Of a stretch of DNA of 64,000 bases, positions 1 to 54,186 are shown in pieces. The notes under the pieces are model-generated. The model was not told the DNA's origin. It saw only the letters and a program-made list of their open reading frames with translations, and searched no databases. The DNA is from Sphingopyxis sp. MSC1_008 (GTDB lineage Bacteria; Pseudomonadota; Alphaproteobacteria; Sphingomonadales; Sphingomonadaceae): NCBI RefSeq assembly GCF_023197165.1, contig NZ_JALPRD010000011.1, positions 1 to 64,000 on the forward strand, read 5' to 3'. Position numbers and translations under genes: made by a program. Every line of letters starts with the position of its first letter. Position 1 is the stretch's first letter.

Positions 1-1863
1 CCCACGCCCACCCCGACCCCCACGCCGACGACCGTCTACACGCCCCCCGCGGCCGAGGCGTTGACCGCGGCCGACGTCGAACGCGTGCTCGCGCAGGCGA
101 TATCGGAAGCGCAGGCACGCGGCCTGCCGTCGGTGATCGCGGTGACCGACCGCGTCGGCAATGTGCTCGGCGTCTTCCGCATGACCGGCGCGCGCCCGAC
201 CGCGACGACCGCACCGGCGCCGAACGGCGTCAATATCGACGCGCAGAATGTCACCTTCCCGGCCGAGGGCGGCGCGATCGCCAAGGCCGTGACCGGCGCG
301 TATCTGTCGAGCGGCGGCAACGCCTTCTCGACGCGCACCGCGAGCCAGATCGTCCAGGAACATTTCCCGCCCGCGCCGGGCGTGACCGCCGGGCTTGAAA
401 GCGGGCCGCTGTTCGGGGTGCAGTTCAGCCAATTGCCGTGCAGCGACCTGTCGGCGCGCTTCGGCGCCGCGGGCGCCGCGGCGCTGATCGGCCCCAAACG
501 CTCGCCGCTCGGCCTTGCTGCCGATCCCGGCGGGCTGCCGCTCTACAAGAATGGCGTGCTCGTCGGCGGCATCGGGGTGATGGGCGATGGCGTCTACGGC
601 AGCGACGGTGACACCCGCGACGTCGATAATGACCCCGAAGAGTTTATCGCGCTAGCGGGTACGCGTGGGTTCGAGGCGCCCTCGACGATCACTGCCGACA
701 AGATCACCGTCGACGGGACGTCGCTCCGCTTCTCCGACGCGACCTTTGCCGGGGTGATGTCGAGCGGCAGCGCCAGCTTCGCGAGCCTCAACGGCACCGC
801 AGGCAATCTGGTCGCGGTGATCGGCTATGCCAATGCCGCGGTCACCACCGGGGTTGCCTATGGCAGCGAGGCATCGGGCGTCCGCGCTTCGACGCCGGCG
901 GAATTTTCGAACCGCGACGCGTTCATCCTCACCAACGGCAGCGGCACGAATCGCTATCCGCTGCGTGCCGGCACCGATGGCGCCACGAACAGCGCGCCGC
1001 TGACGCAGGCCGAGGCGCGCGCGGTGCTCGAAGAAGCCTTCACGGTGATGAGCCGCGCGCGCGCGCAGATCCGCCGCCCGCTCGACAGCCGCGCGCAGGT
1101 GACGATCAGCATCGTCGACACGCACGGGTCGGTGCTCGGCATCGTGCGCTCACCCGACGCGCCGATCTTCGGCACCGACGTGTCGTTGCAAAAGGCGCGC
1201 ACCGCCGCTTTCTTCTCCGGCGCGCAGGCGGGAACCGAGCTCAGCGCCAATGCTAGCGCCGACGTGCGCCAGTTTGTCACCGCAACGCGGACATTCCTGA
1301 ACAGCCCGACGGCACTTACCGGCACTGTCGCCTACGCCGACCGCGCCGTCGGCAATCTTGCGCGGCCCTATTTCCCCGATGGCGAGGTCGGCCGCCCGCC
1401 GGGGCCGCTGTCGCGCCCGATTGCGCAGTTCAATCCCTTCTCGACCGGGCTGCAATCGGCGCTGATCATCGGCAATCTCGGCGCGCATCTGGGTTTCGTC
1501 TCGGGCGCCAGCCCGTCCGACACGCCCGCGCGCTGCACGACCTTGCCCGACGTTGCGGCGGGACAGAACCGACTCCAGAACGGTATCCAGATCTTCCCCG
1601 GATCGGTCCCGATCTATCGCGGTAACCAGTTGGTCGGCGCGATCGGCGTGTCGGGCGACGGTATCGATCAGGATGACATGATCAGCTTCCTCGGCGCGCA
1701 TAATGGCGGCGCGCGCGTCGGCGGGATCGGCAATGCGCCGAAAGCGATCCGATCGGACACTGTCGTCGTCAACGTCGGTGCGGGAGTGCGCCTTCGTTAC
1801 ATCAGCTGCCCCTTCGCCCCGTTCCTCGACACGGCGAACCAGAACGTCTGCGACGGGCTATAG
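1..1863 (+). CDS. Two-domain HbpS/GlcG-like (DUF336) protein, 5' end cut by window
   Basis: The frame is already open at base 1, where it encodes a Pro-Thr repeat linker, so the true start lies outside the window; such linkers often follow a lipoprotein or secretion signal. Two copies of the HbpS/GlcG (heme-binding, DUF336) fold can be seen. Each opens with an Ala-rich helix followed by a V(T/D)xxGxVLGxxR strand (near 61-190 and 1000-1150) and closes with the family's glycine motif, GIGVMGDG near 570-590 and AIGVSGDG near 1640-1660. Both copies carry long inserts, so each is larger than the usual domain of about 140 residues. Family members bind heme or small ligands. The stop is 3 bases before the outer-membrane protein gene and two genes before a decaheme cytochrome, which suggests a periplasmic or surface heme-related partner. 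That role is inference. Confidence 0.75.
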   Translation, partial: PTPTPTPTPTTVYTPPAAEALTAADVERVLAQAISEAQARGLPSVIAVTDRVGNVLGVFRMTGARPTATTAPAPNGVNIDAQNVTFPAEGGAIAKAVTGAYLSSGGNAFSTRTASQIVQEHFPPAPGVTAGLESGPLFGVQFSQLPCSDLSARFGAAGAAALIGPKRSPLGLAADPGGLPLYKNGVLVGGIGVMGDGVYGSDGDTRDVDNDPEEFIALAGTRGFEAPSTITADKITVDGTSLRFSDATFAGVMSSGSASFASLNGTAGNLVAVIGYANAAVTTGVAYGSEASGVRASTPAEFSNRDAFILTNGSGTNRYPLRAGTDGATNSAPLTQAEARAVLEEAFTVMSRARAQIRRPLDSRAQVTISIVDTHGSVLGIVRSPDAPIFGTDVSLQKARTAAFFSGAQAGTELSANASADVRQFVTATRTFLNSPTALTGTVAYADRAVGNLARPYFPDGEVGRPPGPLSRPIAQFNPFSTGLQSALIIGNLGAHLGFVSGASPSDTPARCTTLPDVAAGQNRLQNGIQIFPGSVPIYRGNQLVGAIGVSGDGIDQDDMISFLGAHNGGARVGGIGNAPKAIRSDTVVVNVGAGVRLRYISCPFAPFLDTANQNVCDGL

Positions 1864-1866
1864 GCG

Positions 1867-3798
1867 ATGATGACGGGGGGCAGCCTTTGGCCGATCATCG
1901 CGACGCTCGCCGCGCAAGGCGCGCCGGGAGCCGAGGTTCCGCCGCCACCGCCCGCGCCCGAGGGACCGCCGATTGCCGGCGACACCGCGGCTGCCGAACA
2001 GCCCGCCGAAGAGCTGATTCCTCCCCCGCCGCCGGTCGACTGGCAGGAGATGGTCAAGGACGACCTCGTCACCGGGATTATCGAGGGCCGCCGCCGTCCG
2101 GGCTACACCCCCGACCTGCCCGAACAGCTCAGCCAGGACAATGTCGGTGCGCTTCGCCCGCCGCCGCCGCAGGCCTTTCCCGGCATGGAGGACCAGCTGC
2201 CCGTTCCCGACCGCTGGCGCCTCATTGAGACATTGGGCGTGGTCAAGGAACGCTGGTTCGACCCCTATCACCAGAACACCTACAAGGGTGACCGCGCGAT
2301 CGACCGCAGCAAGGTCAAATGGCTACCGATCAAGGGCGACGACTGGTTCTTTGTCGGCAATGCGGTGTCCGACACGGTGTTCGAACCGCGCACTTTCCCG
2401 ATCCCCGTCGGCGTCCAGACGACCGAGCGGCCGGGCAGCCTCGACGTGTTCGGCAAGGATCGCAGCTTCGTCTTCGCGCAGACCTTCATCGTCGGCGCCG
2501 CGCTGATCAAGGGATCGACCGCGTTCAAGCCACCTGACATCGAATATCGCGTCACGCTTGCCTATCAGGCCAATTATGTCGACGTGCCCGAACGGCGCGT
2601 GCTCGACGTGCGCCCGTCGAAGGCGAGCCATCGCTATGACTCATTCCTCGGCGTGCAGGAATTGTTCGTCGACAAGCATCTCGGCAACACGTCGGACCGG
2701 TTCGATTTTTATTCGATCCGCCTCGGCATCCAGCCATTCCAGAGCGATTTTCGCGGTTTCCTGTTCAACGACAGCCAGCTTGGCATCCGCTTGTTCGGTA
2801 ATCGCGACAACAACCGCTTCCAATATAATCTCGCAGCCTTCTGGCGGCTCGAAAAGGACACCAACAGCGGCCTCAACGACATCACCCAGACCCCGCGCAG
2901 CGATTTCATCTTCACGGGCAATCTCTATCGCCAGGATTTCCCGTTCGTCGGGCTGACCAGCCAGGCCAGCGTGACCTACAATATGAACCGCGAAAAGAAT
3001 GACGTGCAGATCGACCACAACGGCTTCCCGGTGCGCCCGGCGCTGCTCGGCGATCTGCGCGGGCGCGAATATGATGTCGTCTATCTCGGCTATAGCGCCG
3101 ACGGACGGATCGGGCGGATCAACGTCACCGCGAGTTTCTATGCCGCGCTCGGCGAGGACCGGAACAGCTTCTTCACGAGCAAGCCTGCCGAAATCCGCGC
3201 GGGCTTCGGCGCGGTCGAGCTCAGCTACGATCACGACTGGATGCGTTTCCGCCTCTCGGGGCTTTATGCGACGGGCGATGGCGACCCGTATAACAACACC
3301 GAAGGCGGCTACGACGCGATCTTCGAGAACCCGATCTTCGGCGGCGCCGACACCAGCTACTGGATCCGCCAGACGATCCCTTTCGCGGGCGGCGGGCGCG
3401 TCATCGCGATCAGCGGGCGCAACGGCATTTTGAACTCGCTGCGCTCGTCGAAGGAAGAGGGGCAGTCGAATTTCAACAACCCCGGCACCGTCTTCATCGG
3501 TGCCGGTGCCGATTTCGACCTGACCCCCGAATTTCGCGTCAGCACCAATTTCAACCATCTGTGGTTCGAGAATACGTCGAGCCTGCAGGCGCTGCGTACC
3601 GAAGGGTCGATCCCCAAGGATATCGGTTTCGACCTGTCGGTCGCGACGATCTGGCGACCGAAGGCGACGCAGAATATCGTCGGCCGCCTCAGCGCCGCGG
3701 TGCTGCTGCCGGGCAAGGGGTTCAAGGACCTGTTCGACAACAAGAAGAAGAACGACGCTTATGTGTCGATCCTCGCCAATGTGATCGTGAGTTTCTGA
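1867..3798 (+). CDS. Predicted outer-membrane beta-barrel protein next to a decaheme cytochrome
   Basis: This encodes 643 residues; a second ATG at 1870 is an equally possible start. A short hydrophobic N-terminus and a Pro-rich linker (residues about 20-60) precede a long region of alternating polar and aromatic strands typical of outer-membrane barrels. The chain ends in the aromatic residue F, as the BAM signal requires. No heme motif and no TonB box are visible. I cannot assign it to a named family. It starts 3 bases after the HbpS-like gene, and its TGA overlaps the ATG of the cytochrome gene by one base, so the three are almost certainly co-expressed. By analogy with MtrB/PioB-type barrels beside multiheme cytochromes, it may sheathe the cytochrome across the outer membrane. 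Sequence similarity to those families was not recognised, so this is inference. Confidence 0.7.
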   Translation: MMTGGSLWPIIATLAAQGAPGAEVPPPPPAPEGPPIAGDTAAAEQPAEELIPPPPPVDWQEMVKDDLVTGIIEGRRRPGYTPDLPEQLSQDNVGALRPPPPQAFPGMEDQLPVPDRWRLIETLGVVKERWFDPYHQNTYKGDRAIDRSKVKWLPIKGDDWFFVGNAVSDTVFEPRTFPIPVGVQTTERPGSLDVFGKDRSFVFAQTFIVGAALIKGSTAFKPPDIEYRVTLAYQANYVDVPERRVLDVRPSKASHRYDSFLGVQELFVDKHLGNTSDRFDFYSIRLGIQPFQSDFRGFLFNDSQLGIRLFGNRDNNRFQYNLAAFWRLEKDTNSGLNDITQTPRSDFIFTGNLYRQDFPFVGLTSQASVTYNMNREKNDVQIDHNGFPVRPALLGDLRGREYDVVYLGYSADGRIGRINVTASFYAALGEDRNSFFTSKPAEIRAGFGAVELSYDHDWMRFRLSGLYATGDGDPYNNTEGGYDAIFENPIFGGADTSYWIRQTIPFAGGGRVIAISGRNGILNSLRSSKEEGQSNFNNPGTVFIGAGADFDLTPEFRVSTNFNHLWFENTSSLQALRTEGSIPKDIGFDLSVATIWRPKATQNIVGRLSAAVLLPGKGFKDLFDNKKKNDAYVSILANVIVSF

Positions 3799-6700
3799 TG
3801 GTGGCGCGCAAACTCTTCGCCCTGCTCGCTTTCGTGACGATGTGCGCCGCTTTCGGCGCGAGCGTCGTGCGCGCGGCCGAGGAAGAAAAACCGCTCAAGA
3901 TCGAATATCGCTTCACCCCGCCGGCGCCGCGCGAGCAGAGCGAGGCCGAGGTCGTCCAGAAATCCGAAGGCTGCTACAGCTGCCACACCCGCACCGACCA
4001 GCCGTCGATGCACGCGACGCCGGCGGTGCGGCTCGGCTGCACCGACTGCCACGGCGGCGATGCGAGCCAGCGCGGCACGCCCAGCCTCGGCTACCAGCAT
4101 CCGACGAACAAGGCGGTGATTGCGCTCGCGCACCCGCAGCCGACGCTGCCTGGCGCGTGGCACGACAGCTCGGCGAACCCCGAGCGCAGCTACACCTTGC
4201 TCAACAAGGAATCGCCCGAATTCATCCGCTTCGTGAACCCCAGCGATTACCGCGTCGCGCGCGAGGCGTGCGGCGCGTGCCATCTCGAGGTGATCGAGGC
4301 GACCGAGCGGTCGATGATGTCGACCGGCGCGATGCTTTGGGGCGGTGCGGCGTATAACAACGGGATCGTCCCCTATAAAAACTACATCTTTGGTGAGGCT
4401 TATACGCGCACCGGCGAACCCGCATGCATCCTCTCGCCCTCGTCGCGGCTGACCGCCGAGGAATATAAGGAAGCCTGCAAGCCGAGCTTCGGTTTCGACA
4501 AGATATTGACCGACGAAGAGAAAAAGCGCGGCGCGCTTGCGAAAATGTATCCGCTGCCGCGGTGGAGCGTGCTGCCGCCGGGCGACGTTTTCCGCGTGTT
4601 CGAGCGCGGTGGACGCAACATCAATACGCAATTCCCCGAAATCGGTCTGCCGAACCCGACGGGCAGCATCCAGCGGCTCGAGGAGCCGGGACGCCCCGAC
4701 CTCAAGCAGTCGAACCGCGGCCCCGGCACTGGCCTGCGTGTGTCGATCCCCGTGCTCAACATCCACAAGACGCGCCTCAACGACCCGTTGTCATGGTTCA
4801 TGGGGACGAACGACCAGCCCGGCGATTATCGCCACTCGGGCTGTTCGGGCTGTCACGTCGTCTACGCCAACGACCGCGAGCCGCGGCACAGCCTGACCTA
4901 TGCCAAATATGGTCGCGACGGCGAAACGGCGACGGTCGACCCGACGATCGCGGAAAAGAAGTGGAAGCCCGAAGGCGAGCATGGCGGCGATAGCCATGGC
5001 GCCGAAGATGGCCATCAAGCCGGTGGCGGCCACGGCGCGTTGATCGACCCCGCCGATCCCGACGTTCCGGCGCGCCCCGCATCGCCGGCGCGCGGCGAAT
5101 CGGGTCACCCGATCAGCCACACATTCACGCGCGCGATCCCGACCTCGCAGTGCATGTCGTGCCACATGCACCAGCCGAATATCTTCCTGAACTCCTATCT
5201 CGGTTACACGATGTGGGATTATGAATCCGATGCCCCACAGATGTGGCCGGGCCCTGACAACACCGCGCCGCGTCCGCCGGGGATGAGTGACGAGGAGTAT
5301 CAGAAGAAATACAAGCAACAGCGTTATCCGACCGCGGCCGAGGTGCATCAGGTGCTCGAACGCAATCCGGAGGGCGCGGCGACGCGCGGGCTATGGGCCG
5401 ATGTCGAGTTCCTGCGCGACGTCTATGACGTCAACGACAGCAACAAGGACACGCAGTTCGCCGACTATCACGGCCATGGCTGGAACTTCCGCGGCATCTT
5501 CAAGCGCGACCGCAGCGGCAATCTGCTGACCGCCGACGGCAATATGTCGACCTATGGCACCGACACCGCGAACATCATCGATCCGAAGGACCCGGAGAAA
5601 TGGCGCAAGAGCTGCAGCCATTACACCGATCCGAAGGAGCGCGATCTCTGCCTGTCGAGCGCCGATCCGGGCCGCCCGGGTGTCGAGGGCAAGTTCGTGC
5701 CGCCCGGCCTCAACCCCGGCAAGGCGGTCCATATGATGGACATCCACGCCGAAAAGGGCATGCAATGCGCCGACTGCCACTTTGCGCAGGACAGCCATGG
5801 CAATGGCTATATTCAGGGCGAGGTCGCGAACGCGGTCGAGATCAGCTGCAAGGATTGCCACGGCACCGCCGATGCTTTCCCGAACCTGCTCACCTCGAAC
5901 GTCGCGGCGCGGCCGCAGGGCAACAACTTGGCGCTGCTTCGCAATCCCGACGGGCGGCGCCGCTTCGAATTCCAGTATAACGACGATGCCGAAGTGATCG
6001 GGCTGATCCAGCGATCGATCGTCGATCCGAAGCTCGAATGGCGGGTCAGCCTCGTCAAGCAGGCGGTGACGCCGGGGCCGCATTTCAACGCCAAGGCGGC
6101 GCGCGCGAAATTGATGGCGCGGGCGGGCAGCGAGGACGGCAAGTTCGAATGGGGGCCGGGGGTCGCCAAGGAGGAGCGCGCACACGGCGAAGACAAGATG
6201 ACCTGCTTCACCTGTCACCTGTCGTGGACGACGAGTTGCGGCGGCTGCCATTTGCCGATCGAGGCGAACTGGAAGACCAAGATGCACCATTTCGAGGGTG
6301 AGGAGACGCGCAACTTCGCGACGTACAACCCGCAGGTGGCGCGCGACGAGATGTTCCAGCTTGGCCGCCACCAGCTCACCAAGCCCGGCGAACCCGGCCC
6401 GAACGGCGAGGCGCGCGGCATCATCACCCCGGTGCGCTCGACCTCGGCGTTGGTGCTGTCGTCGACGAACATCAACCGCGAGCGCATCTATGTGCAGCAG
6501 CCGCCGATTTCGTCGGCGGGCTATTCGAGCCAGGCGTTTGCCCCGCACTTCCCGCATACGGTGCGGCGTTCGGAAACCAAGCAATGCTCCGACTGCCATC
6601 TGTCGGCGGCCGACGATAACAATGCGATCATGGCGCAGCTCAATTTGCTCGGCACCAACTTCGTCAATTTCGTCGGGCTGAACGTCTGGTCGGGTCAGGA

Positions 6701-8090
6701 AAACAGCTTCCAGGCGACGCGCGTCACCGAATGGGACGAGCCGCAGGCGGTGATTGGCAGCTACCTCCAGAAATACGCCTATCCCGACTATTGGAAACTG
6801 CATGTCGACCAGAATGGCCGCGAGCTCAAAAATTGGGTGCGCGGCAAGACCTTCGACAAGAATGGCTCGGGCGAAACGCACGCGCTCGAGGAGTTCGCCA
6901 ATATCGTCCAGGGGACGAGCGGGCGCGTGAACTGCCTGCAACAGCGCGGCGAATATATGTTCGTGGCAGAGGGCAAGGGCGGTTTCCGCGTCTATGACAT
7001 CGCGTCGATCGGCAACAAGGGCTTCTCCGAACGCATCATCCGCGCGCCTTTCTCGGCGCTCGGGCAGGATACGCATGTGAAGACGAAGAACGCGACCTGC
7101 ATGGCGATCGCGACGACGCAGCCGATCAGCGTGTCGCGCAACGAGAATATCGTGAAGAATTTCCCCGAGAACCACGAACAGGTAATGCACGATATCTACC
7201 GTTACGCGGTGATCACCGACAGCGTCGAAGGGCTGATCCTCGTCGACATCGATACGCTGGCCGACGCCGAGTTCCGCAACAACAAGTTCAAGCGCGCGCT
7301 GACGTGGAACGAGGGCAATGTGCTGGCGGGCGCGCGGCACGTCACGCTCGCGGGCAGTATGGCCTATATCACCACCGACGCAGGGCTGGTGGTGCTCGAC
7401 CTGTCGACGCCGCTCCAGCCGAAGGTCACGGCGCAACTGCCGCTGACCGATGCGCGCGCGAGCGCGGTGCAGTTCCGTTACCTCTGGGTCACCGATGCCG
7501 AGGGTGTGAAGCTGTTCGACGTCACCAATCTTGCACAGCCGGTCGCGGTGCCGTCGGGCACGGTGCGGCTGGCCAATGCACGGAAAATCTATCTGGCGCG
7601 CACTTATATGTACGTCGCGGCGAAGCAGGATGGCCTGGTGATCGTCGATGTGACACGCCCCGCGGCGCCGATTGTATGGCCCGGGCTGACCTTTGGCGGA
7701 ATGCTGAACGATGCCGAGGATGTGATCGTCGCGTCGACCAACGCGTCGCTGTTCGGTTATGTCGCCGACGGGCGGAACGGCATCAAGGTGCTCCAGCTGA
7801 CGAGCCCCGACAATCCGGGCCTTTATGGCTTCTCGCCCAAACCTACACCGGAATTGATCGCCTGGGCGAAGACGCCGTCACCTGCGCTCGCGCTGTCGAA
7901 GGGGCTCGACCGCGATCGCGCGGTCGACGAGACCGGCGGGCAGATGGCGGTGTTCGGGCGTGTCGGATCGCGGCCGTTCACCCGGCCCGAGATGGAGAAG
8001 CTGTTCCTCAACAGCAGGGGCGTGGTCTACAAGGTCAGCGACGACGTCGACCAGAATGCTTGGCGGCCCCCGCTGCTTTACGCAAACTAG
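3798..8090 (+). CDS. Decaheme c-type cytochrome with C-terminal LVIVD beta-propeller
   Basis: This encodes 1430 residues from an ATG that overlaps the previous stop (TGATG); the open frame continues upstream to 3561 but only inside the preceding gene. Residues 1-26 form a Sec signal peptide ending VVRA. Ten CxxCH heme c motifs lie between residue 59 and about 934: CYSCH, CTDCH, CGACH, CSGCH, CMSCH, CADCH, CKDCH, CFTCH, CGGCH, CSDCH. From about residue 1050 to 1370 there are at least five LVIVD-type repeats (for example GGFRVYDI, LVVLDLS, VKLFDVT, LVIVDVT), which form beta-propellers in known proteins. The protein should be exported and matured by the Ccm system. Electron transfer is certain from the hemes, but the donor and acceptor are unknown. 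Fusion of ten hemes to a propeller is unusual; a surface terminal reductase or oxidase is one possibility. Confidence 0.9.
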   Translation: MVARKLFALLAFVTMCAAFGASVVRAAEEEKPLKIEYRFTPPAPREQSEAEVVQKSEGCYSCHTRTDQPSMHATPAVRLGCTDCHGGDASQRGTPSLGYQHPTNKAVIALAHPQPTLPGAWHDSSANPERSYTLLNKESPEFIRFVNPSDYRVAREACGACHLEVIEATERSMMSTGAMLWGGAAYNNGIVPYKNYIFGEAYTRTGEPACILSPSSRLTAEEYKEACKPSFGFDKILTDEEKKRGALAKMYPLPRWSVLPPGDVFRVFERGGRNINTQFPEIGLPNPTGSIQRLEEPGRPDLKQSNRGPGTGLRVSIPVLNIHKTRLNDPLSWFMGTNDQPGDYRHSGCSGCHVVYANDREPRHSLTYAKYGRDGETATVDPTIAEKKWKPEGEHGGDSHGAEDGHQAGGGHGALIDPADPDVPARPASPARGESGHPISHTFTRAIPTSQCMSCHMHQPNIFLNSYLGYTMWDYESDAPQMWPGPDNTAPRPPGMSDEEYQKKYKQQRYPTAAEVHQVLERNPEGAATRGLWADVEFLRDVYDVNDSNKDTQFADYHGHGWNFRGIFKRDRSGNLLTADGNMSTYGTDTANIIDPKDPEKWRKSCSHYTDPKERDLCLSSADPGRPGVEGKFVPPGLNPGKAVHMMDIHAEKGMQCADCHFAQDSHGNGYIQGEVANAVEISCKDCHGTADAFPNLLTSNVAARPQGNNLALLRNPDGRRRFEFQYNDDAEVIGLIQRSIVDPKLEWRVSLVKQAVTPGPHFNAKAARAKLMARAGSEDGKFEWGPGVAKEERAHGEDKMTCFTCHLSWTTSCGGCHLPIEANWKTKMHHFEGEETRNFATYNPQVARDEMFQLGRHQLTKPGEPGPNGEARGIITPVRSTSALVLSSTNINRERIYVQQPPISSAGYSSQAFAPHFPHTVRRSETKQCSDCHLSAADDNNAIMAQLNLLGTNFVNFVGLNVWSGQENSFQATRVTEWDEPQAVIGSYLQKYAYPDYWKLHVDQNGRELKNWVRGKTFDKNGSGETHALEEFANIVQGTSGRVNCLQQRGEYMFVAEGKGGFRVYDIASIGNKGFSERIIRAPFSALGQDTHVKTKNATCMAIATTQPISVSRNENIVKNFPENHEQVMHDIYRYAVITDSVEGLILVDIDTLADAEFRNNKFKRALTWNEGNVLAGARHVTLAGSMAYITTDAGLVVLDLSTPLQPKVTAQLPLTDARASAVQFRYLWVTDAEGVKLFDVTNLAQPVAVPSGTVRLANARKIYLARTYMYVAAKQDGLVIVDVTRPAAPIVWPGLTFGGMLNDAEDVIVASTNASLFGYVADGRNGIKVLQLTSPDNPGLYGFSPKPTPELIAWAKTPSPALALSKGLDRDRAVDETGGQMAVFGRVGSRPFTRPEMEKLFLNSRGVVYKVSDDVDQNAWRPPLLYAN

Positions 8091-26800: not shown

Positions 26801-29800
26801 TGACGATCAATGGCCTGAACGCCGAAGGCGCCGAAGTCATCGTCAACGAAGACGATCTGTCCGACGGTTCGTCGCCTGATGCGACGGCGCTGACGCAGAC
26901 GGATAATTTCACCGTCTCGACCCCCGACGGGCTCGGCAATGTGACGATCGGCGGCACGCAGGTCGTGACGAACGGCGTGTTCACCGCGGGCACCGCGACG
27001 AGTCCGCTCGGGACCGTCAACATCACGGGCTTTACGCCGGTGATCGGCGCCGATGGCTCGGTGGTCGGTGGGACCTTCACCTATAATTATGTGCTTTCGG
27101 ACAACACGCTGACGCACAGCAGCCAGGGCGAGGATTTCGTCGGCGACAGCTTCGCCGTTGTCGTGACCGACAGCGACGGATCGACCGCCAACGCCAGCCT
27201 CGACGTCCGGATCATCGACGATGTCCCGACCGCGACGGACGATGGCACGACGCAAACGGTCGAAAATGCCCCGGTCACGATCGATGTGCTCGCCAACGAT
27301 GTGCGCGGCGCAGACGGCGTACAGCCCTCGGCGGTTCAACTCGTCGCGGGTTCGCTGAGCGGCACCGGCACGCTCGTCAACAATGGCGACGGCAGCTTCA
27401 CCTATACGCCCGGTGCGCAGGAAACCGGCAGCGTCAGCTTCCAGTACCGGATCACCGACGGCGACGGCGACACCGACGTCGCCACCGCGACGATCACGCT
27501 GGTCGCCGATTCGGCGCCGCAGATCGGCAAGACCGCCGATGTCACCGTCGACGAGGACGGCCTCGCCGGCGCCAATGCCGACAATGGCCTGCCCGGCGAA
27601 ATCACCTCGACCGGCAGCGCAAGCGCCAACGGCACGATCACCGTCGATTTCGGCAGCGACGTCCCCGCGACGCTCGCGGGCTCGCTCGTGCTCAACGACA
27701 GCGCGGCGCTCGACACGCATCTGACCGTCGGCAGCGTACCGGTAACCTTCGCCAAGGTCGGCAATGATCTCGTCGGGTCGGTCGGCGGCAATGAGGTAAT
27801 TCGCATCAGCCTGACGACCGCGACCGCGGGCCCCGGCGCGACGCAGGTCACCTATGGCTATACGGTCACCCTGTCGCAGGCGATCGACCAGGCGGTCCCG
27901 GGCAGCGAGGATAGCGATTTCCTCGCGGGCATCGGCTTCACCGTCACCGACGGCGACGGCACCACTGCGTCGGGTTCGTTCGGCGCGACGATCGTCGACG
28001 ACCTGCCGACGCTCAACATTTCCGACATGCCTACGACCATCGTCGAGGGCGCGACCGCCAACGGCACGTGGACGCTTGATCGCGGCGCCGACGGCGTCAA
28101 CTCGGTCAACGTCAGCTTTGGCGCGGGCAGCGCGACGCTGTCGCTCGCGCCGGGAAGCAGCGTGTCGATCACCCAGCCGACGGGCACGCTGACGGTCAAC
28201 GCCAACGGCACCTTCAGCTTTGCCGCCGCGGGCAACCAGAACAACGCCGCGAATCCGTCCGCAAGCTTCACCCTGTCGGCGGTCGACCGCGACGGCGATC
28301 CGACCTCGGACAGCCTGACGATCGCGATCACCGACGGCGCAAACCCGGTGAATGCGACCCCCATCACGGTGACGGTCAACGAAGCCGCGCTGAACGGCAT
28401 TGGCAGCAGCCCGGCGAGCAACGCCGAAACGGCGAGCGGAAATCTCAGCTTTACGGCGGGTTCGGACACGCTGTCGGGCTTCGCCTTTACCGGCGTTGCG
28501 GGTCTTGCGGCCAATCTCGACGGGGCGGGCACCGACATTTTCTGGACGCTGGCACCCGGCGGGCAAACGATCATCGGGTCGCTGACGATGGGCGGCCCCG
28601 CCGCGATCACGATCAGCCTGACCGCACCCGCAAGCATCGCGCCCGGCGCGACGGCTGCGGCAACGGTCACCGTCACGCTCGCCGACAATCTGCCGCACGC
28701 GCTGGCAATGGCGGCGCAGACACAGGCGCTCGGTACCGTGACGGTGCAGGCGACCGATACCGATGGTGACCCTGCAACGGGCGTCGTCACCGTGCAGGTA
28801 ACCGACGATATTCCGGCCGCCAAGCCCGACGCCGATAGCGTTACCGAGGATGGTCCGCTGACCGCGGACGGCAATGTGCTGACCGGTACGGGCGGCGCCG
28901 ACGGCAATACGACAGATGGCGCTGCCGATACCCAAGGGGCCGACGGCGCGACCGTCACGGGCGTAAGCTTCGGTGCAACGGTCGGCGCCGTGGGCGCAGG
29001 GCTGGCGGGCGCCTATGGCACGCTGACGCTGAACGCCGACGGTAGCTACAGCTATGTCCTCAACAATGCGGCGCAGCCGGTGCAGGGCCTTTCGGCCGGT
29101 CAGACGCTGACCGAGACCTTCACATATATAATCACCGACGGCGACGGCGATCCGGCGACGACGACGCTGACGATTACGATCGACGGCGCCAACGACGGCG
29201 TGACGATCACCGGTCTCGACGCCGCGGGCGCCGAACTGTTCGTCGACGAAGACGATCTGCCGGCACGTCCGGGCGAACCCGCAGGTTCGGACACGACGCC
29301 CGACAGCCTGACCGACAGCGACAGCTTCACCGTGTCGACCCCTGACGGCATGGGCAATGTGGTGCTGACCAGCTTTAACGGCGTGCCGCTCGGCGCGCCG
29401 CTGACGCTCGTCGTCGCCAATGGCGCGTTCACGCCGCAGTCGGTTGCGAGCGCCTATGGCACGCTCAATGTCACCGGCTTCACCGCGGTGACCGGCGCCG
29501 ACGGTTCGGTGATCGGCGGGACGTTCACCTATAGCTACACGCTGAACGATAATCGCATCGACCATCCGGCGGCGGGCGAGGACAATCGCAACGACAGCGT
29601 CGGCGTGACGGTGACCGACATCGACGGATCGACCGCGAGTGCGACGATCAACATCCGTATCACCGACGACGTGCCCGCCGCCGCGCCCGAAGCGAACCAG
29701 AATGTCGCCGAGGGTGCGACGGTCACCGGCACGCTCGACTTCGTGCAGGGTGCCGACGGCGCGACCGTTACCCAGATCAACGGCACGGCGCTCGCCTTTG

Positions 29801-32800
29801 GCGGCGACGGCTTCTCGCAGGCCATCGACATCGGCCACGGCATGATCAAGGTGAAGGCCGACGGCAGCTACAGCTTTACCGCCGACGCATCGGTGCCCGG
29901 CACCGGCAGCGCCGCCGCGACCTACACGGTCACCGATGGCGACGGCGATACGGCAACCGCTTCGATCGGCTTCACGATCACCGACGCCAATGTGCCGACC
30001 GCGGGCACCACGCTGGCGTCGGTCGATGACGATGGGCTGGTAGGTGGGAATGCCGCGAGCAATACGGGCGATCTCAATGCTAATCTCGGCGACGCGCCGG
30101 GCGATACCAGCGAAGCAACCTTTACCGGCACGCTTGCTCTGAGCTTCGGTGGCGACGGCCCGGGCATCGTTACCTTTGCCAGCATGGATGGCACGACCGC
30201 ACAGATCGGCACCGAAACCGTGACCTACAGCTCGGTGGGGGGCAATCTCCATGCCGTGATCACCGGCGGTCCGCGCGACGGTATCCAGCTGTTCTTCGTC
30301 GAAGGTAACGGCCTCGGCGGATACAAGGTGACGTTGCTCGACAATGTCCTGCATGCTGCGGGCGGGGCTGAAAATGATGCACTGGCCGCGCTGACCTACA
30401 CCGTCACCGACGCCGATGGCTCGACCGCGACGGGCACACTCAACATCACCTTCGACGACGATGCGCCGACGGTGGTTGCGAACATCACTCAGCCGGTGCT
30501 GCCGGTCGATGAATCGACGTTTGGCACCGACGCGTCGTTCAGCTTTGCCTCGGTCTTTACGCCGACCTTTGGCGCCGATGGCGCTGCGGCGACGAATTCG
30601 ACCACCTATTCGCTCGGCTTCGCGGCCGGATCGACGGGCCTTGTCGACACGCTGACGAACCAGGCGGTCGTGCTCAGCGTCGTCGGTGGCGTGGTCCAGG
30701 GCCGAACCGCGACCTCGAACGAGTTGGTCTTCACGGTCAGCGTCGCGGCGAATGGCACCGTCACGCTCGATCAGAGCCGCGCGGTGGTCCACACCCCGAA
30801 CAGCGGACCCGATCAGCCGACGAGCCCGCTCGCGGACAATCTGATCACGCTGACCGCGACGGTTACCGATGCCGACGGCGACACGGCGACCGCGACCGCC
30901 AATATCGGCCAGAATCTGGTATTCGAAGACGATGCGCCAGTGGCGAATGACGATATGGCGGGCCTCACCGAAGGCGGCCCGATCGCGGTGACCTTCGACG
31001 TCGACACCAACGACAGCGACGGCGCCGACGGTTTCGGCAGCCGCACCTTCACCAGCCTGACGGGTACCTATGGTACGATCACGATCAACGGCGACGGCAC
31101 GCAGACCTATGCGCTGAGCGCCGCCGGCCAGATTGCGATCAACGCGCTCGCCCCCGGGGCAACGCTGACCGATGTCTTCACCTACACCCTCACCGACAAG
31201 GACGGCGACAGCGACCCCGCGACGCTGACGGTCACGCTGACCGGTGACGACGACGGCGTGACGATCACCAACCTGACGCCCGCGGCGCAGGGTGGTGACG
31301 TCACAGTGGACGAGGACGATCTGCCGAACGGTTCGTCGCCGAATGCGGCGGCGCTCACCGCAACGGGCACCTTCAATATCTCGGCGCCCGATGGCGTTGC
31401 GAACCTGTCGGTGCATGGCGCGCAGGTCGTCAATAATGGCGTCTTCACGTCGGCTACGATCACCACGCCGCTCGGCAACACGCTGGTGATCACCGCTTAT
31501 AATCCGGCGACAGGAGTGGTGACGTACACTTACAAGCTGAACGCGGCGGAGACGCATACGACGGGTGCGGACCAGAACAGCCTGTTTGAGAATTTCACCG
31601 TCTCGCTCACCGACACCGACGGCGACAACACGACGGGGACGCTTTCGGTCAATATCGTCGACGATGTCCCGGACGCCGTGAACGATACCGACAGCATCGC
31701 CGCCGGCCAGTTCGGCCCGGCAACGGGCAATGTCATCACCGACGCTGCCGCGGGCGATGCGGGTGACGGCGACACTGGCGCCGATACGCGCGGCGCCGAC
31801 GGTGCGGCAGTTTCTGCGATCGTCAGCGTCAATGTGCCGGCGAACAGCGACACGAGTGCTGATGGCTTGGGCAATTTCCAGGTCAATGGCCAGTATGGAG
31901 TTCTGACAATCAACACCGACGGCAGCTACAGCTATACGCGGGGCGCCGGAACTGCCGGGGGTGTCAGTGACACCTTCACATATACGTTGCGCGACGGCGA
32001 CGGCGATCCCGATACCGCGACGCTGACGATCAGCATCGCCGATGCGCGGCCGGTCGCGGCGGCGAACGCGACAGCCCTGCTCGACGACGACGCGCTTCCG
32101 GGCGGCATCGCGAACGGCACGGGCGACGACGTCAATTCCGCGAACACGACCGGCACGCTTGGCGCCACGGGCGGCGACGGCGCACTGACCTTCGCTTTCC
32201 TGACGACGGGTGCGCCGGCGGGCTTCACCTATGTCCTGTCGGGCAACGATCTGCTGGTGAAGCAGGGCGGTGCCGGCGGCACCACGGTGCTGACCGTCAC
32301 GCTGAACCCTGCAAACGGTGCCTACACCGTCACCCAGAATGCGCCGATCGTGCACGCGGCGGGCGATGACGAGAACAACCAGCCGTTCGCGATCGGCTAT
32401 AGCGTCACCGACATCGATGGCGATGCGGCGCTCGTCCCCGGCACGCTGAACATCAACGTCGACGACGACACGCCGACGGTCACCCTGGTGGCGACCAACG
32501 AAAGCAGCGTCGTTCTGACCACGCAGGATGCGCAGACGATCGGCGCGGGCGTCTCCGACACCGATTCCTCGACCGCGAACTTCGGCGGTGTCTTCAACCT
32601 GACGTCGGCCTATGGCGCCGACGGCGCGGGCACGACGACGTTCAACTATGTGCTGAGCCTCGTCGGCTTGAACGGCAGTCCGGCAAACCTTGCCAGCAAT
32701 GGCGTGGCGATCCGCCTTTACACCCAGTCCGACGGTTCGTTGGTCGGCTCGACCTCGGCGACGTCGGGCGGCGTCAACGCCGCGAACACGATCTTCTCGA

Positions 32801-44957: not shown

Positions 44958-45482
44958 TTAATTGCCGCGCGGCTTGAGTGTCAGAGGCAGTCCGGCGGTG
45001 AGCAGCACCACTTCGTCCGCCGTCGCCGCGACCGACTGGTTGAGCTGCCCCGCCGCGTCGCGGAACGCGCGCGCGAGTGCATTGTCGGGCACGATGCCGA
45101 GGCCAACCTCGTTGGCGACGAGGATCAGAGTCCCTCTGAAGTGGTTGATCGCATGGCATAATTCGCGGCCCGCACGCGGAATGTCGGCGTCGGCAAGCAG
45201 CAGGTTCGAGACCCAGAGCGTCAGGCAGTCAACCAGCACGACCGCATCTTTGGCATTCAGCGCGTCGATCGCCGCAGGCAGGTCGCGCGGCGCCTCGATG
45301 GTGGTCCAGCGCGCGTCGCGGTCGGCGCGGTGGCGCGCGATCCGGTCGCGCATTTCGTCGTCGAAGGCTTCGGCGGTCGCAACAAAAACCGGGTTGTCGC
45401 CCGCGGCTTCGGCGCGTGCCTGCGCATAGCGACTCTTGCCCGATCGCGCGCCGCCGAGCACGAACAGCGACGATCCGCTCAT
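44958..45482 (-). CDS. cobU: Adenosylcobinamide kinase/guanylyltransferase
   Basis: This encodes 174 residues. The Walker A-like GGARSGKS at the N-terminus, the His-rich IARHRADRDARW loop, VLVDCLTLWVSNLL and EVGLGIVP(D)N match CobU/CobP. It phosphorylates adenosylcobinamide and activates it with GTP. Last gene of the cobalamin operon; its ATG overlaps the cobQ stop. Confidence 0.94.
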   Translation of the reverse strand: MSGSSLFVLGGARSGKSRYAQARAEAAGDNPVFVATAEAFDDEMRDRIARHRADRDARWTTIEAPRDLPAAIDALNAKDAVVLVDCLTLWVSNLLLADADIPRAGRELCHAINHFRGTLILVANEVGLGIVPDNALARAFRDAAGQLNQSVAATADEVVLLTAGLPLTLKPRGN

Positions 45483-46936
45483 GCGCCGATCCCGGCGATG
45501 CGCAGCATCGCATCGATATCGGCGTGCGCCGCAAACTCGGCGGCGATGTCGTCGAGCGCGGTATCGACGTCGGCCGCATAGTCGCGTCCGCCTCCCGCTA
45601 CCTCGATCCGCGCGAGCAGCGCTTGGCGCAAGTCGGGCGAAGCGAACAGGCCGTGGAGATAGGAGCCGATGACATTGCCTTCGCGATTGGTCGCGCCGTC
45701 GCGCACACCGTCCTCCAGAACGGCGAATGGCTGTACCGTACCGGGGCCGCTGGTTTCGCCCAAATGCATTTCATATCCCTCCACCGCTGCACCCAATGCG
45801 GTTCCCCGCACGTGACGCAATGTCTTTGCGGGCGAAAGGATCGTTTCGACATCGAGCAGGCCGAGCCCTTCGACTTCGGCAGGTGCCCCCTCGATCCCCA
45901 GCGGGTCGGCGATCCGGCGCCCGAGCATCTGATAGCCCCCGCACAGCCCGACGATCATCCCGCCGCGCCGGTGGTGCGCCTTGATGTCGATATCCCAACC
46001 CTCGGCACGCAGCGCCGCAAGGTCGGCGATCGTCGCCTTCGACCCTGGCAAGACGATGATCGCCGCCTCGGCGGGGATCGGCCGGCCCGGCGGCACCATC
46101 ACGATCTCGACCCCGGGTTCGAGCTTCAGCGGATCGAGGTCGTCGAAATTCGAAATGCGCGGCAGGATCGGGCAGGCGATCATCTTGCGGCCCTCGCGCG
46201 GGTCGGCGGGGCGTTCGAGGATCACCGCATCCTCGCTCGGCAGGCGCGATGCCGCGCTCAGCCACGGGATCACGCCGAAACCCTGCCACCCGCTGCGCTT
46301 CTCGATTTCGCGATAGCCGTCCTCGAACAGCGCGGGGTCGCCGCGGAACTTGTTGATCAGGAAACCGCGGATCATTGCGGCGTCCGCGGCGTCGATTACC
46401 GCTCGCGTCCCGACGAGCGAGGCGATTACGCCGCCGCGGTCGATGTCGCCGATCAGCACGACGGGCACATTCGCGGCGCGCGCGAACCCCATGTTCGCGA
46501 TGTCGCCCGCGCGCAGGTTGATCTCTGCGGGCGACCCGGCGCCTTCGACGATGACGATATCGCACTGGCTGCGGAGCCGCCCATAGCTTTCGAGCACTTC
46601 GGTCATCAGCGCGCCGCGCGCCTCGCGGAAATTGCCGCTGCCGAGCGTGCCGCGCACGCGGCCGTGGACGATCAACTGCGAAGTGCGGTCGGCCTGCGGT
46701 TTCAGCAGCACGGGGTTCATGTCGCTGTGCGGTTCGACGCGGCACGCAATGGCTTGCAGTGCCTGCGCGCGCCCGATCTCACCGCCATCGGTCGTCACCG
46801 CGGCATTGTTCGACATATTCTGCGGCTTGAAAGGGAGGACGCGAAGGCCGCAATTGGTCAGCACGCGGCACAGCGCGGCGACGAGCACCGACTTGCCGAC
46901 GTCCGAGCCGGTGCCCTGCAGCATCAGCGCAGCCAT
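45479..46936 (-). CDS. cobQ: Cobyric acid synthase (glutamine-hydrolysing)
   Basis: This encodes 485 residues. The start at 46936 (MAALMLQGTGSDVGKS) is inside the end of cbiB, by 13 bases; the frame is open further upstream without meaning. The N-terminal dethiobiotin-synthase-like ATPase has the P-loop GTGSDVGKS. The C-terminal class I amidotransferase has its Cys in VGLCGGYQMLG and a His in SYLHGLF. It amidates adenosylcobyrinic acid a,c-diamide at four positions. Its presence without ring-forming genes suggests use of imported cobyrinate-type precursors. Confidence 0.93.
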   Translation of the reverse strand: MAALMLQGTGSDVGKSVLVAALCRVLTNCGLRVLPFKPQNMSNNAAVTTDGGEIGRAQALQAIACRVEPHSDMNPVLLKPQADRTSQLIVHGRVRGTLGSGNFREARGALMTEVLESYGRLRSQCDIVIVEGAGSPAEINLRAGDIANMGFARAANVPVVLIGDIDRGGVIASLVGTRAVIDAADAAMIRGFLINKFRGDPALFEDGYREIEKRSGWQGFGVIPWLSAASRLPSEDAVILERPADPREGRKMIACPILPRISNFDDLDPLKLEPGVEIVMVPPGRPIPAEAAIIVLPGSKATIADLAALRAEGWDIDIKAHHRRGGMIVGLCGGYQMLGRRIADPLGIEGAPAEVEGLGLLDVETILSPAKTLRHVRGTALGAAVEGYEMHLGETSGPGTVQPFAVLEDGVRDGATNREGNVIGSYLHGLFASPDLRQALLARIEVAGGGRDYAADVDTALDDIAAEFAAHADIDAMLRIAGIGA

Positions 46937-47862
46937 AGCGCGCCTCCCGCGATCAGCCAGAGGAGGAGGCAAGCGCGCAAATAGATCGCGAGCGCGCGGT
47001 CGATTTCGTCGCCGCCTGCTTTGCTGGTCCCATCGCCGATCCATGGCTTGTCGTGCATGACCCCGTCATAGGCGATCGGTCCCGCGAGCCGAAGCCCCAG
47101 CGCGCCCGCCATTGCCGCCTCGGGCCAGCCGGCGTTGGGCGAGGCATGGTTGCGCGCGTCGCGCCACAGGATGCGCCAGCCGCCGCGGCCCGCGAGGCAC
47201 AGGAGTAGCCCCGACAGCCGCGCCGGAATCCAGTTGGCGAGGTCGTCGGTCCGCGCGGCCGCCCAGCCAAAGGCGCGCCAGCGTTCCTCGCGGTGGCCGA
47301 TCAGGCTGTCGGCGGTGTTGACCGCCTTATACGCCCAAACGCCCGGCAGGCCGAGGAGGAGCAGCCAGAAGAGCGGCGCGGCGACGCCGTCGCAAAAGCT
47401 TTCGGCAAGGCTTTCGATCGCGGCGCGCGCGACCCCGCTTTCGTCGAGTGCGGCGGTGTCGCGGCCGACGATCATGCCGACCGCACCGCGCGCCCCGGCG
47501 AGGTCGCCGGCATCGATCCGCTCGCCCACCGCACGAACATGATCGAACAGGCTGCGCTGCGTGAGCGCGGGCCAGGCGAGTATCGCGACGGCGATCCAGC
47601 CCCAGCCGCCGAGCGACGCGAGCAGCAGACGCTGGAGCGCCCAACCGGAGCCAGCAACGAGGACAAGCAGGACGAGCAGGGTCAGGACACCGAGCGCGCG
47701 CCGCATGGCGAAGCTGTGTCCGGGACGGTTCCAGCGCGCCTCGCAACCGCCGATGATCCGCGCAAACAGCCCGACGGGGTGGCCGACGCTGCGATAGAGC
47801 GCGCGGGGCCAGCCGAACGCGGCGTCGAGCGCGAGCGCGGTGAGCGCGATCGGCTCAGCCAT
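46924..47862 (-). CDS. cbiB: Adenosylcobinamide-phosphate synthase
   Basis: This encodes 312 residues of an integral membrane protein with about five hydrophobic segments. CbiB/CobD signatures are HPVGLFARIIG, the RDTAALDESGVARAAIESLAESFCDGVAAPLFW stretch, YKAVNTADSLIGHREERWRAFGWAAARTDDLANWIPARLS and RNHASPNAGWPEAAMAGALG. It joins cobyric acid to the aminopropanol-phosphate arm made by the decarboxylase encoded just upstream. It overlaps that gene by eight bases and cobQ by 13. Confidence 0.94.
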   Translation of the reverse strand: MAEPIALTALALDAAFGWPRALYRSVGHPVGLFARIIGGCEARWNRPGHSFAMRRALGVLTLLVLLVLVAGSGWALQRLLLASLGGWGWIAVAILAWPALTQRSLFDHVRAVGERIDAGDLAGARGAVGMIVGRDTAALDESGVARAAIESLAESFCDGVAAPLFWLLLLGLPGVWAYKAVNTADSLIGHREERWRAFGWAAARTDDLANWIPARLSGLLLCLAGRGGWRILWRDARNHASPNAGWPEAAMAGALGLRLAGPIAYDGVMHDKPWIGDGTSKAGGDEIDRALAIYLRACLLLWLIAGGALWLR

Positions 47863-48829
47863 CGGCGAGCGCCGCTTCGAGCCGCGCGCGCGCGGCGGCG
47901 TCGACGGGCAGGCCGATCCGCAGCCAGCGCGGTTGATCGGCGAAGGGGCGCGTCAGGATCGCACGCCACGCGAGCCGCTCGAACAGCGCATGCGCGTCGT
48001 CGACCTCGATCAGGCGAAAGAGCGGGCAGTCGCCGGTCGACCGATGGCCACGGCGCGTCAGCAGGGCGTCGAGCGCGGCGGCTTCATCCGTAAGCCGCTG
48101 CCGTGCGGCGGCGATCCAGTCGCGGTCGGCATAGGCGGCGGTTCCGATCAGGATTGCCGCGGCCGACAGCGGCCACGCGCCGAGCCGTTCGCGCAGCGCC
48201 GCGACGATGGGCTGCGGCGCAACGACGAAGCCGAGCCGCACGCCCGCGAGGCCGAAGAATTTGCCAAAGGAGCGGAAGACGATCAGCCTCCGGCCGTCAT
48301 CGACCAGCGGCGCGATACTCGTGGCCGGGTCGGTGTCGGCAAAGGCTTCGTCGACCAACAGCCAGCCGCCGGGGCCGCGCCGGTCCAGCAGCGCCTGCAT
48401 CGCCGCGGCGCCGGTCACGCGGCCGTCCGGGTTGTTGGGGTTGGCAAGGATCAATGTGCCGTCGTGGCCTCGTGCCGCTTCGGGGGCGACGGGCGCGCTT
48501 CCCGCAACCATTTCGCCATGGGTGCGATAGCTCGGTGCGATATGCCGTGCGGGGCCGCCCACCAGCGCCCCGGTGAGGCGCAGGCCGATCTCGCTTCCGG
48601 GCACGGCGCAGAGATGGCGGGCGTCGACACCGAAACAGGCGGCAGCAACGGCTTCGAGCCGCGCGAGTGCGTCGGGGTCGGGTAGGCGCTGCCAGTCGAA
48701 CGCCATCGCGGCGGCGCCGGGCCAGGGGTGCGGATTGATCCCCGTCGACAGGTCGATCCAGTCGCCATTTCCGAACTCGCGCTTCGCGGCTTCGATCCCG
48801 CCGCCGTGCCAGGTCCATGGGCCGCTCAT
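47855..48829 (-). CDS. cobD: Threonine-phosphate decarboxylase
   Basis: This encodes 324 residues of a fold-type I PLP enzyme. The PLP lysine lies in FRSFGKFFGLAGVRLGF, and the Asn/Asp contacts in LANPNNPDGRV and LLVDEAF. The N-terminal DLSTGINPHPWPG is specific for CobC/CobD decarboxylases rather than general aminotransferases. The product, aminopropanol phosphate, is the linker of the nucleotide loop. The gene is called cobD in Salmonella and cobC in Pseudomonas. Start 48829 overlaps the cobS stop. Confidence 0.92.
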   Translation of the reverse strand: MSGPWTWHGGGIEAAKREFGNGDWIDLSTGINPHPWPGAAAMAFDWQRLPDPDALARLEAVAAACFGVDARHLCAVPGSEIGLRLTGALVGGPARHIAPSYRTHGEMVAGSAPVAPEAARGHDGTLILANPNNPDGRVTGAAAMQALLDRRGPGGWLLVDEAFADTDPATSIAPLVDDGRRLIVFRSFGKFFGLAGVRLGFVVAPQPIVAALRERLGAWPLSAAAILIGTAAYADRDWIAAARQRLTDEAAALDALLTRRGHRSTGDCPLFRLIEVDDAHALFERLAWRAILTRPFADQPRWLRIGLPVDAAARARLEAALADG

Positions 48830-49545
48830 GCAAAGTGCACCAGCAACAGCGCCGCCGCGAGCAGCAGGCTTTCGGCGATCTCGATCCCCGCGCCGTGCCC
48901 GTCGCCCGAAATCCCCCCGATCTTGCGTAGCAGCCACCAGCTCCAAATAAGGAAGTTCAAGGGTGCGATGAGCAGCGAGGGCGATACCCAAGCCGCAGCG
49001 GCGAGAGCCAGGCCCCAGATGACGAAATCCGTCCGGCGTACCGCGTTGCGGAAGCGCGAGCCGAGCCCCGCGTGAAGGTCGGGCAGCGCGCGCGACCAGG
49101 CGAGCGGGCCGATCCGCGCGGCAAAGGGTATGAGCGCGATCGCGGGGAACATCTCGCGGTCAAGCAATGCATGGAGCAGCACGAGCTTGGCGATCAGTTG
49201 CAGCGCGATGGCGACGACCGCGAAACTGCCGACATGCGGGTCGCCGAGCACGGCGATCAGCCGCCCGCGGTCCTTGTGCGCCGCCCCGCTCGCATCGGCG
49301 ATATCGCCGAGCCCGTCGAGATGCAGCGCGCCGGTCACCGCGACCCAGAGGATGAGTGCGCACAAGGCGCCCGTCCACGGATCGATCCGCGCACCAGCCC
49401 AGCCGCCCGCTGCGACAATCGCGCCGACGATCAGCCCGACGGCGGGAAACCAGCGCATCGACGCTGCGAATTCTTCGCTCGACACCGTGATGCGCGGTGT
49501 CGGCAGGCGCGTCAGGAACTGGATCGCGACGATCAGCCCCTTCAT
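48826..49545 (-). CDS. cobS: Adenosylcobinamide-GDP ribazoletransferase (cobalamin synthase)
   Basis: This encodes 239 residues with about six hydrophobic segments. The family motif GALHLDGLGDIADASGAAHKDR (about 75-96) holds the metal-binding acidic residues. The N-terminus IQFLTRLPTPR is typical. It joins the activated corrinoid to alpha-ribazole in the membrane. The start at 49545 overlaps the phosphatase stop (ATGA); the frame is open much further upstream, without the family features. Confidence 0.93.
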   Translation of the reverse strand: MKGLIVAIQFLTRLPTPRITVSSEEFAASMRWFPAVGLIVGAIVAAGGWAGARIDPWTGALCALILWVAVTGALHLDGLGDIADASGAAHKDRGRLIAVLGDPHVGSFAVVAIALQLIAKLVLLHALLDREMFPAIALIPFAARIGPLAWSRALPDLHAGLGSRFRNAVRRTDFVIWGLALAAAAWVSPSLLIAPLNFLIWSWWLLRKIGGISGDGHGAGIEIAESLLLAAALLLVHFA

Positions 49546-54034: not shown

Positions 54035-54186
54035 AGGATAACCCCTCGACAATGCCGCTCACGCACACGGTGATGCGGTTGTCCCGGGGACACACGACAT
54101 CGCCCGCGCCCATGCGCAGCCAAGCTTGTCGTCATGCGGGTTCACCCCCGTCCGCCCGGCACACCCTGTCCGCACGAAAGACGACG

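Follow-up and report, generated by a model that had tools for sequence, protein, structure and literature searches.

A candidate porin-cytochrome conduit with a probable cytosolic electron entry in Sphingomonadales

Most work on porin-cytochrome conduits concerns bacteria that reduce or oxidise metals. Sphingomonadales, an order that contains Sphingopyxis and Erythrobacter, are regarded as aerobic. A 64,000-nucleotide stretch of the Sphingopyxis sp. MSC1_008 genome (the window; positions 1 to 64,000 of contig NZ_JALPRD010000011.1) opens with genes for an HbpS-like lipoprotein, a predicted heme-free outer-membrane barrel protein and an exported decaheme cytochrome with C-terminal LVIVD repeats (decaheme-LVIVD). 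These genes belong to a conserved set of seven, which resembles a wire for electrons from the cell interior to the surface and is carried by about a quarter of the sampled sphingomonad genomes (75/296). Such a set is unexpected in oxygen breathers.

The closest described systems are the following. He et al. (2017) defined the putative PCC3 and PCC4 clusters, whose inner-membrane proteins share an SGXXG motif and two WX3HX13H motifs (PMC5566968). PCC3 is reported in Alphaproteobacteria, among them an Erythrobacter that oxidises Mn(II); its cytochromes have median values of 34 and 21 heme sites, and its porins have up to 42 transmembrane regions (PMC5566968). PCC4 is described with three periplasmic cytochromes, which have 4, 5 and 10 hemes respectively, and with no extracellular one. 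In PCC4 Subgroup II, a pfam13247 Fe-S gene lies upstream of the inner-membrane gene, and the two sometimes form one frame (PMC5566968). In Geobacter, conduits whose loss affects metal reduction comprise a porin, a 5-heme cytochrome and a rhodanese-like lipoprotein, and deletions of ext clusters (extHIJKL to S) affect the reduction of metals, selenite and tellurite (PMC6148476, PMC5877670). The Uet system of Ca. Tenderia combines a barrel with NHL-repeat proteins, a prolyl isomerase and 11-heme, 4-heme and three 3-heme cytochromes (PMC10734462). The open-access texts consulted contain no description of the gene set considered here; it may stand in supplementary tables (MHCscan survey, He et al.) or in subscription papers.

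The original prediction placed a predicted heme-free barrel directly before an exported ten-heme cytochrome with a one-base overlap, an arrangement now confirmed by the open reading frames, CXXCH conservation and AlphaFold2. All three window genes are on the forward strand (Table 1), and the cytochrome ATG and the barrel stop codon share base 3798. The cytochrome frame opens at 3561, and the protein with its signal peptide, recognised by eye, begins at the ATG at 3798. Its CXXCH motifs start at residues 59, 81, 158, 349, 452, 657, 684, 803, 814 and 930. Each motif is kept in 43/43 aligned homologues and in 3/3 homologues from outside Sphingomonadales; chance is therefore excluded. Fourteen further histidines are invariant in the same alignment, and all are kept in the three homologues from outside the order. 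Judged from this conservation, the histidines would be enough for bis-histidine ligation of all ten hemes. The repeat region matches PF08309 in two stretches (E 2.7e-12), and the genome encodes CcmF, for heme attachment.

The 643-residue barrel protein contains no CXXCH and has no Pfam or NCBIfam match at E 1. AlphaFold2 predicts it as a barrel of 18 strands, with a mean pLDDT (predicted local distance difference test) of 66.6 and low values at residues 1-141; AlgE is the closest fold in a structure search. PDB sequence searches with the barrel, as a single sequence or as a profile, gave no matches. The conserved segment ahead of the strands, largely of low confidence in the model, is a possible plug or docking site. 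A model of the cytochrome heme domain is considered below with the points that weigh against the proposed function.

The same prediction likened the gene logic to that of MtrAB/PioAB and remarked that neither protein resembles those families by eye. The likeness holds only for the arrangement, in which a gene for a barrel without hemes adjoins that of a decaheme cytochrome. MtrB_PioB (PF11854) has no match at E 1 in the window barrel or in any of 43 aligned homologues. It also has no match in the window's own genome, and the same control search over 14 genomes gave one match, below the cut-off. The cytochrome scores 15.6 bits against the MtrA/DmsE family (TIGR03508; cut-off 192.2). MtrB has 28 predicted transmembrane motifs (PMC5877670) versus 18 strands here, in a model of middling confidence, and it is not among the fold matches listed for the barrel model, which excludes nothing. 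The conduit proposed below is not a member of Mtr/Pio. PDB searches with the outer cytochrome yielded five marginal matches by sequence (best E 0.08) and none at E 1 by profile. ExtM (NF040943, an equivalog) is matched by 46/46 heme domains at E 0.001 (best E 1.1e-23). With 68.1 bits for the whole window cytochrome and 71.5 for its heme domain versus a cut-off of 800, the relation appears at most distant.

The linkage of barrel and cytochrome was surveyed in the best 80 of 335 encoding stretches in GTDB genomes, and the barrel gene lies just upstream of the cytochrome gene in 80/80. A sample of 296 Sphingomonadales genomes was searched at E 1e-10 for the outer cytochrome, 1e-10 for the barrel profile and 1e-20 for a second decaheme cytochrome, which carries an FHA domain (FHA-decaheme). 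The three occur in exactly the same 75 genomes. Barrel and cytochrome are separated by 0-172 bases in all 75 carriers, and no genome of the sample has the barrel without the cytochrome. The carriers are related by descent and are hence not independent observations. The FHA gene is less than 40 kb away in 43/75; of the rest, 12 have it on the same contig at a greater distance, and 20, the window's genome among them, carry it on a different contig. In a sample of 398 genomes across the phylum, searched for the outer cytochrome at E 1e-15, 11 carry it and 15 carry the gene for a protein with flavin adenine dinucleotide (FAD), cyclic nucleotide monophosphate (cNMP) and Fe-S domains, including all 11. 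Three of the 11 fall outside Sphingomonadales, and each of these has the whole gene set together, with the same barrel-cytochrome order: in one region on one strand in genomes G653 and G645, and as two facing blocks in G544.

The HbpS/GlcG-like protein also belongs to the set, as first suggested. It scores 87.4 bits against PF03928 (gathering cut-off 25), and a lipobox pattern is present in 69/77 aligned homologues. Its gene was found in 74/80 loci. Of the six others, five (L036, L058, L078, L084, L099) are represented by DNA that starts within the barrel gene or a little ahead of it. The window itself starts at base 1 of its contig (C11) in an assembly of 28 contigs and 4.75 Mb. The bases at the end of contig C20 recur at the start of the window, within a repeat of the HbpS gene that encodes Pro and Thr (window 1-60, L113:1-140), so C20 and C11 are probably neighbours. 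C20 holds the start of the HbpS gene, with its lipoprotein signal, and the adjoining gene for a c554-like cytochrome, which has four CXXCH motifs and one conserved CX4CH.

The remaining three genes form an inner-membrane module, found on contig C21 in this genome. The likely periplasmic decaheme is thus encoded beyond the window, by the separate FHA gene, which is adjoined by genes for a b-type membrane protein and for the FAD/cNMP/Fe-S protein. By hydropathy, the FHA-decaheme consists of an FHA domain, a single predicted transmembrane segment (134-152) and then all ten CXXCH motifs; its PDB matches are FHA domains and small cytochromes. The b-type protein has two HX13H pairs, with two WX3HX13H motifs in 41/42 sequences and SGXXG in 40/42; its hydropathy gives no firm support for five helices. 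The flavoprotein combines pyridine-nucleotide oxidoreductase, cNMP-binding (two stretches) and 4Fe-4S domains, has no predicted transmembrane segment or signal, and matches PF13247 (E 1.7e-11). The b-type motifs together with PF13247 therefore indicate an inner-membrane step of the PCC3/PCC4 kind. A single uninterrupted frame of 1118 codons encodes both the Fe-S and the b-type protein in G328 (L144:12849-16205), and a frame of about that size is present in G444.

On this evidence, the balance tips slightly toward reading the seven proteins (FAD/cNMP/Fe-S, b-type, FHA-decaheme, c554-like, HbpS-like, barrel, decaheme-LVIVD) as a porin-cytochrome conduit with a cytosolic entry, of which the window genes would be the outer half. 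The entry would probably be fed by NAD(P)H. Electrons would pass from NAD(P)H to the cytosolic FAD, through iron-sulphur clusters to the b hemes of the membrane protein, and on to the periplasmic FHA-decaheme and the c554-like carrier. The carrier would deliver them to the decaheme-LVIVD, docked on or in the barrel with its hemes and repeats presented at the surface, for outward flow to an extracellular acceptor. We infer both the crossing of the outer membrane and its outward direction. Outward flow is favoured because a flavoprotein stands at the cytosolic end and because RuBisCO, present in 13/296 genomes, occurs in only 1/75 carriers versus 12/221 others. Extracellular reduction of azo dyes is reported for Sphingomonas BN6.

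Cyclic nucleotides acting at the cNMP domains would perhaps gate the conduit, and phosphorylation would be sensed by the cytosolic FHA domain. A bolder and rather doubtful proposal makes the set a gated trans-envelope NAD(P)H oxidase, fed by the often neighbouring glutamate dehydrogenase, in which these domains would switch the whole path to the surface, an electron outlet for aerobic sphingomonads when oxygen is short. In some genomes, the FHA gene is adjoined by a gene for a metallophosphoesterase, which NCBIfam places closest to SpdA, a cyclic-nucleotide phosphodiesterase, below the cut-off (136.3 versus 400 bits). CHASE2-type cyclase-like genes near some clusters (L130:9807-11666, L106:114-1925 and, by eye but unmatched in the search, L133:2-1387) loosely fit nucleotide control. 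A glutamate dehydrogenase gene ends 47-231 bases before the c554-like match in 35/36 loci that have both on the forward strand. In several lineages, this gene lies beside or inside the cluster (L132:16836-18170, L113:1620-2972, L130:4282-5649). In G653, it stands between the c554 and HbpS genes; in G544, it adjoins the FHA gene. The enzyme is annotated as NADP-specific in the Sphingopyxis indica record. These positions hint at a supply of NADPH and may be mere neighbourhood.

Compared with the described systems, the set shares with PCC4 a porin, several multiheme cytochromes, the b-type motifs, a pfam13247 Fe-S gene upstream and an occasional fusion of the Fe-S and inner-membrane proteins. In contrast to PCC4 as published, its cytochromes carry four CXXCH plus CX4CH, ten (FHA) and ten (LVIVD), and an HbpS lipoprotein is added. 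PCC3 has the same inner-membrane motifs and a porin with outer and periplasmic cytochromes, and its published description is set apart by heme and strand numbers, which here are 10 and 10 CXXCH and 18 predicted strands. The Geobacter ext clusters, the best functional precedent by analogy, likewise combine a porin, a 5-heme cytochrome, a lipoprotein, larger multiheme cytochromes, and b-type and Fe-S proteins. They differ in having a rhodanese in place of the HbpS lipoprotein and a Rieske-type Fe-S protein in place of the FAD/cNMP/Fe-S protein, and an LVIVD fusion is not described for ext in the texts consulted. Uet resembles the set in its barrel, repeat protein and several multiheme cytochromes (PMC10734462). 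In the window cytochrome, Pfam lists no NHL repeat at E 1; LVIVD repeats stand in its place, with ten CXXCH versus the undecaheme of Uet. The barrel differs from AlgE in lacking a clear sequence-family match and in never occurring without the cytochrome in the 296-genome sample. Through this set, the published PCC3/PCC4 type of inner-membrane protein is linked with a specific source of electrons in the cytosol and with possible signalling domains. Electron export by an aerobe, and its signal, become testable genetically in culturable strains.

Several observations weigh against an outward conduit with a cytosolic entry. Surface exposure, heme loading, transfer order, direction and control are all inferred; the sequences themselves show the gene set, its co-occurrence, the motifs, one fusion and, by hydropathy, the topology. 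The heme-domain model (residues 28-1040, 46 rows) is unusable, with a mean pLDDT of 45.9 and a pTM (predicted template modelling score) of 0.31. An 18-strand pore may be too narrow for a sheathed wire of the Mtr kind. Four of the 15 genomes with the FAD gene (G296, G328, G444, G445) lack the outer cytochrome at E 1e-15, and the inner module can therefore serve something else. A lenient re-search of G296, G328 and G445 gave a single match, of 14.8 bits in G328, and nothing in the other two. G445, from outside the order, has HbpS and barrel genes at a contig end and no detectable outer cytochrome; unless the cytochrome gene is missing from the assembly, this genome is an exception to the pairing of barrel and cytochrome. 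In locus L103, the HbpS gene is truly absent, with unrelated genes upstream. Finally, by analogy with PCC3/PCC4, for which He et al. proposed quinone exchange at the b-type step (PMC5566968), the b-type protein could exchange electrons with quinones instead.

The rival that survives best, unlikely in our judgement, sees the set as a reductase whose substrate is soluble and oxidised. Admitted by the barrel, the substrate would be reduced by a periplasmic or surface-held decaheme-LVIVD for detoxification or assimilation, not for the respiration of solids. The uniform ExtM matches point to a Geobacter selenite/tellurite operon, Geobacter without the porin ExtI reduced less selenite and tellurite (PMC5877670), and the barrel is similar to solute pores and exporters. 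However, the ExtM scores fall far under the cut-off, and no open catalytic heme is evident because the conserved histidines could ligate all ten hemes. Lower in probability is electron uptake, in which Fe(II), Mn(II) or some other external donor would supply the surface cytochrome with electrons for transfer inward. Metal or cathode oxidation has been proposed for PCC3, PCC4 and Uet (PMC5566968, PMC10734462), the Erythrobacter listed for PCC3 oxidises Mn(II) (PMC5566968), and conduits of such type may run in both directions (PMC10734462). Against this stands the cytosolic end, a flavoprotein of pyridine-nucleotide type, which would make the transfer uphill for those donors. Autotrophic (CO2-fixing) uptake is also disfavoured, because so few carriers have RuBisCO.

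It is improbable that the set serves to acquire iron or heme reductively at the surface, with the HbpS-like lipoprotein and the decaheme reducing and capturing Fe(III) or heme and the barrel as the pore. The PF03928 match fits such a role, as does a Fur-like similarity before the c554 gene slightly above shuffles, and Ext genes are reported to be under Fur control (PMC5877670). The Fur signal is weak, however, no conserved TonB-type receptor or plug domain was found, and about 25 c-type hemes would make a costly uptake device. It is hardly credible that the barrel is an ordinary exporter or porin with no functional tie to the adjoining cytochrome: the weak matches of barrel homologues to Alginate_exp (PF13372; 6/43, best E 0.0088) and DESULF_POR1 (25/43) and the lone barrel of G445 are outweighed by the close spacing in every carrier and by the unchanged gene order outside Sphingomonadales.

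Table 1. Features at the start of the window
Feature	Position	Strand	Basis
HbpS-like double-domain lipoprotein gene	1..1863	+	PF03928 E 1.1e-24; 5' end (lipoprotein signal) cut by contig start, located on contig C20
Heme-free outer-membrane barrel protein, 643 aa	1867..3798	+	Open reading frame; AlphaFold2 18 strands; AlgE best fold match
N-terminal segment ahead of barrel, strongly conserved, residues 90-159	2134..2343	+	Invariant columns, 43-sequence alignment
18-predicted-strand region, residues 160-642	2344..3792	+	AlphaFold2
Exported decaheme cytochrome with C-terminal LVIVD repeats, 1430 aa	3798..8090	+	Open reading frame, Pfam
Cytochrome signal peptide, residues 1-27	3798..3878	+	By eye; hydrophobic stretch 1-19
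Heme region, ten CXXCH, residues 59-934	3972..6599	+	Motifs kept in 43/43 and 3/3
Best-scoring LVIVD stretch, residues 1261-1292, of C-terminal repeat region (putative beta-propeller)	7578..7673	+	PF08309

The stretches before the c554 (72), FAD (27) and barrel (78) genes were scanned for promoter boxes, with one single-base shuffle per stretch. Before the c554 genes, CRP-like boxes with one mismatch occur in 3/72 versus 0 shuffled stretches, and Fur-like boxes with 7-8 of 19 mismatches in 38/72 versus 15. Before the FAD genes, Fur-like boxes with at most six mismatches and OxyR-like boxes with two are each found in 3/27 versus 0. The barrel stretches, which consist mostly of HbpS coding sequence, have NnrR-like boxes with 0-1 mismatch in 27/78 versus 7 and FNR-like boxes with 2-3 mismatches in 68/78 versus 23. 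The differences from shuffles are small, and none of the CRP-, Fur-, OxyR-, NnrR- and FNR-like boxes is credited.

The outer cytochrome is also encoded in 13/72,556 plasmid records (12 Sphingobium, 1 Sphingopyxis), of which 2 are typed as conjugative and 11 as non-mobilizable. Plasmid pMSHV of Sphingobium herbicidovorans, typed as conjugative, holds all seven genes within 17 kb, and pMC4 of S. indica, also typed as conjugative, holds the outer block only, within the stretch examined. The annotations of both plasmids give no system name; typical product labels are 'hypothetical protein' and 'multiheme c-type cytochrome'. The presence of all seven genes on pMSHV suggests a way in which the set may spread.

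Two-partner secretion genes or genes for large secreted-repeat proteins lie near either module in some loci (annotated at L150:524-8677 and 28137-29816; by eye at L131:3371-7060 and L112:15926-19852). Farther along the window, a 4456-codon frame, possibly a giant adhesin, is followed by genes that resemble a type I secretion set by eye (23785-43852). A run of genes resembling cobalamin biosynthesis, with a TonB-type receptor, is likewise recognised by eye at 44958-54052.

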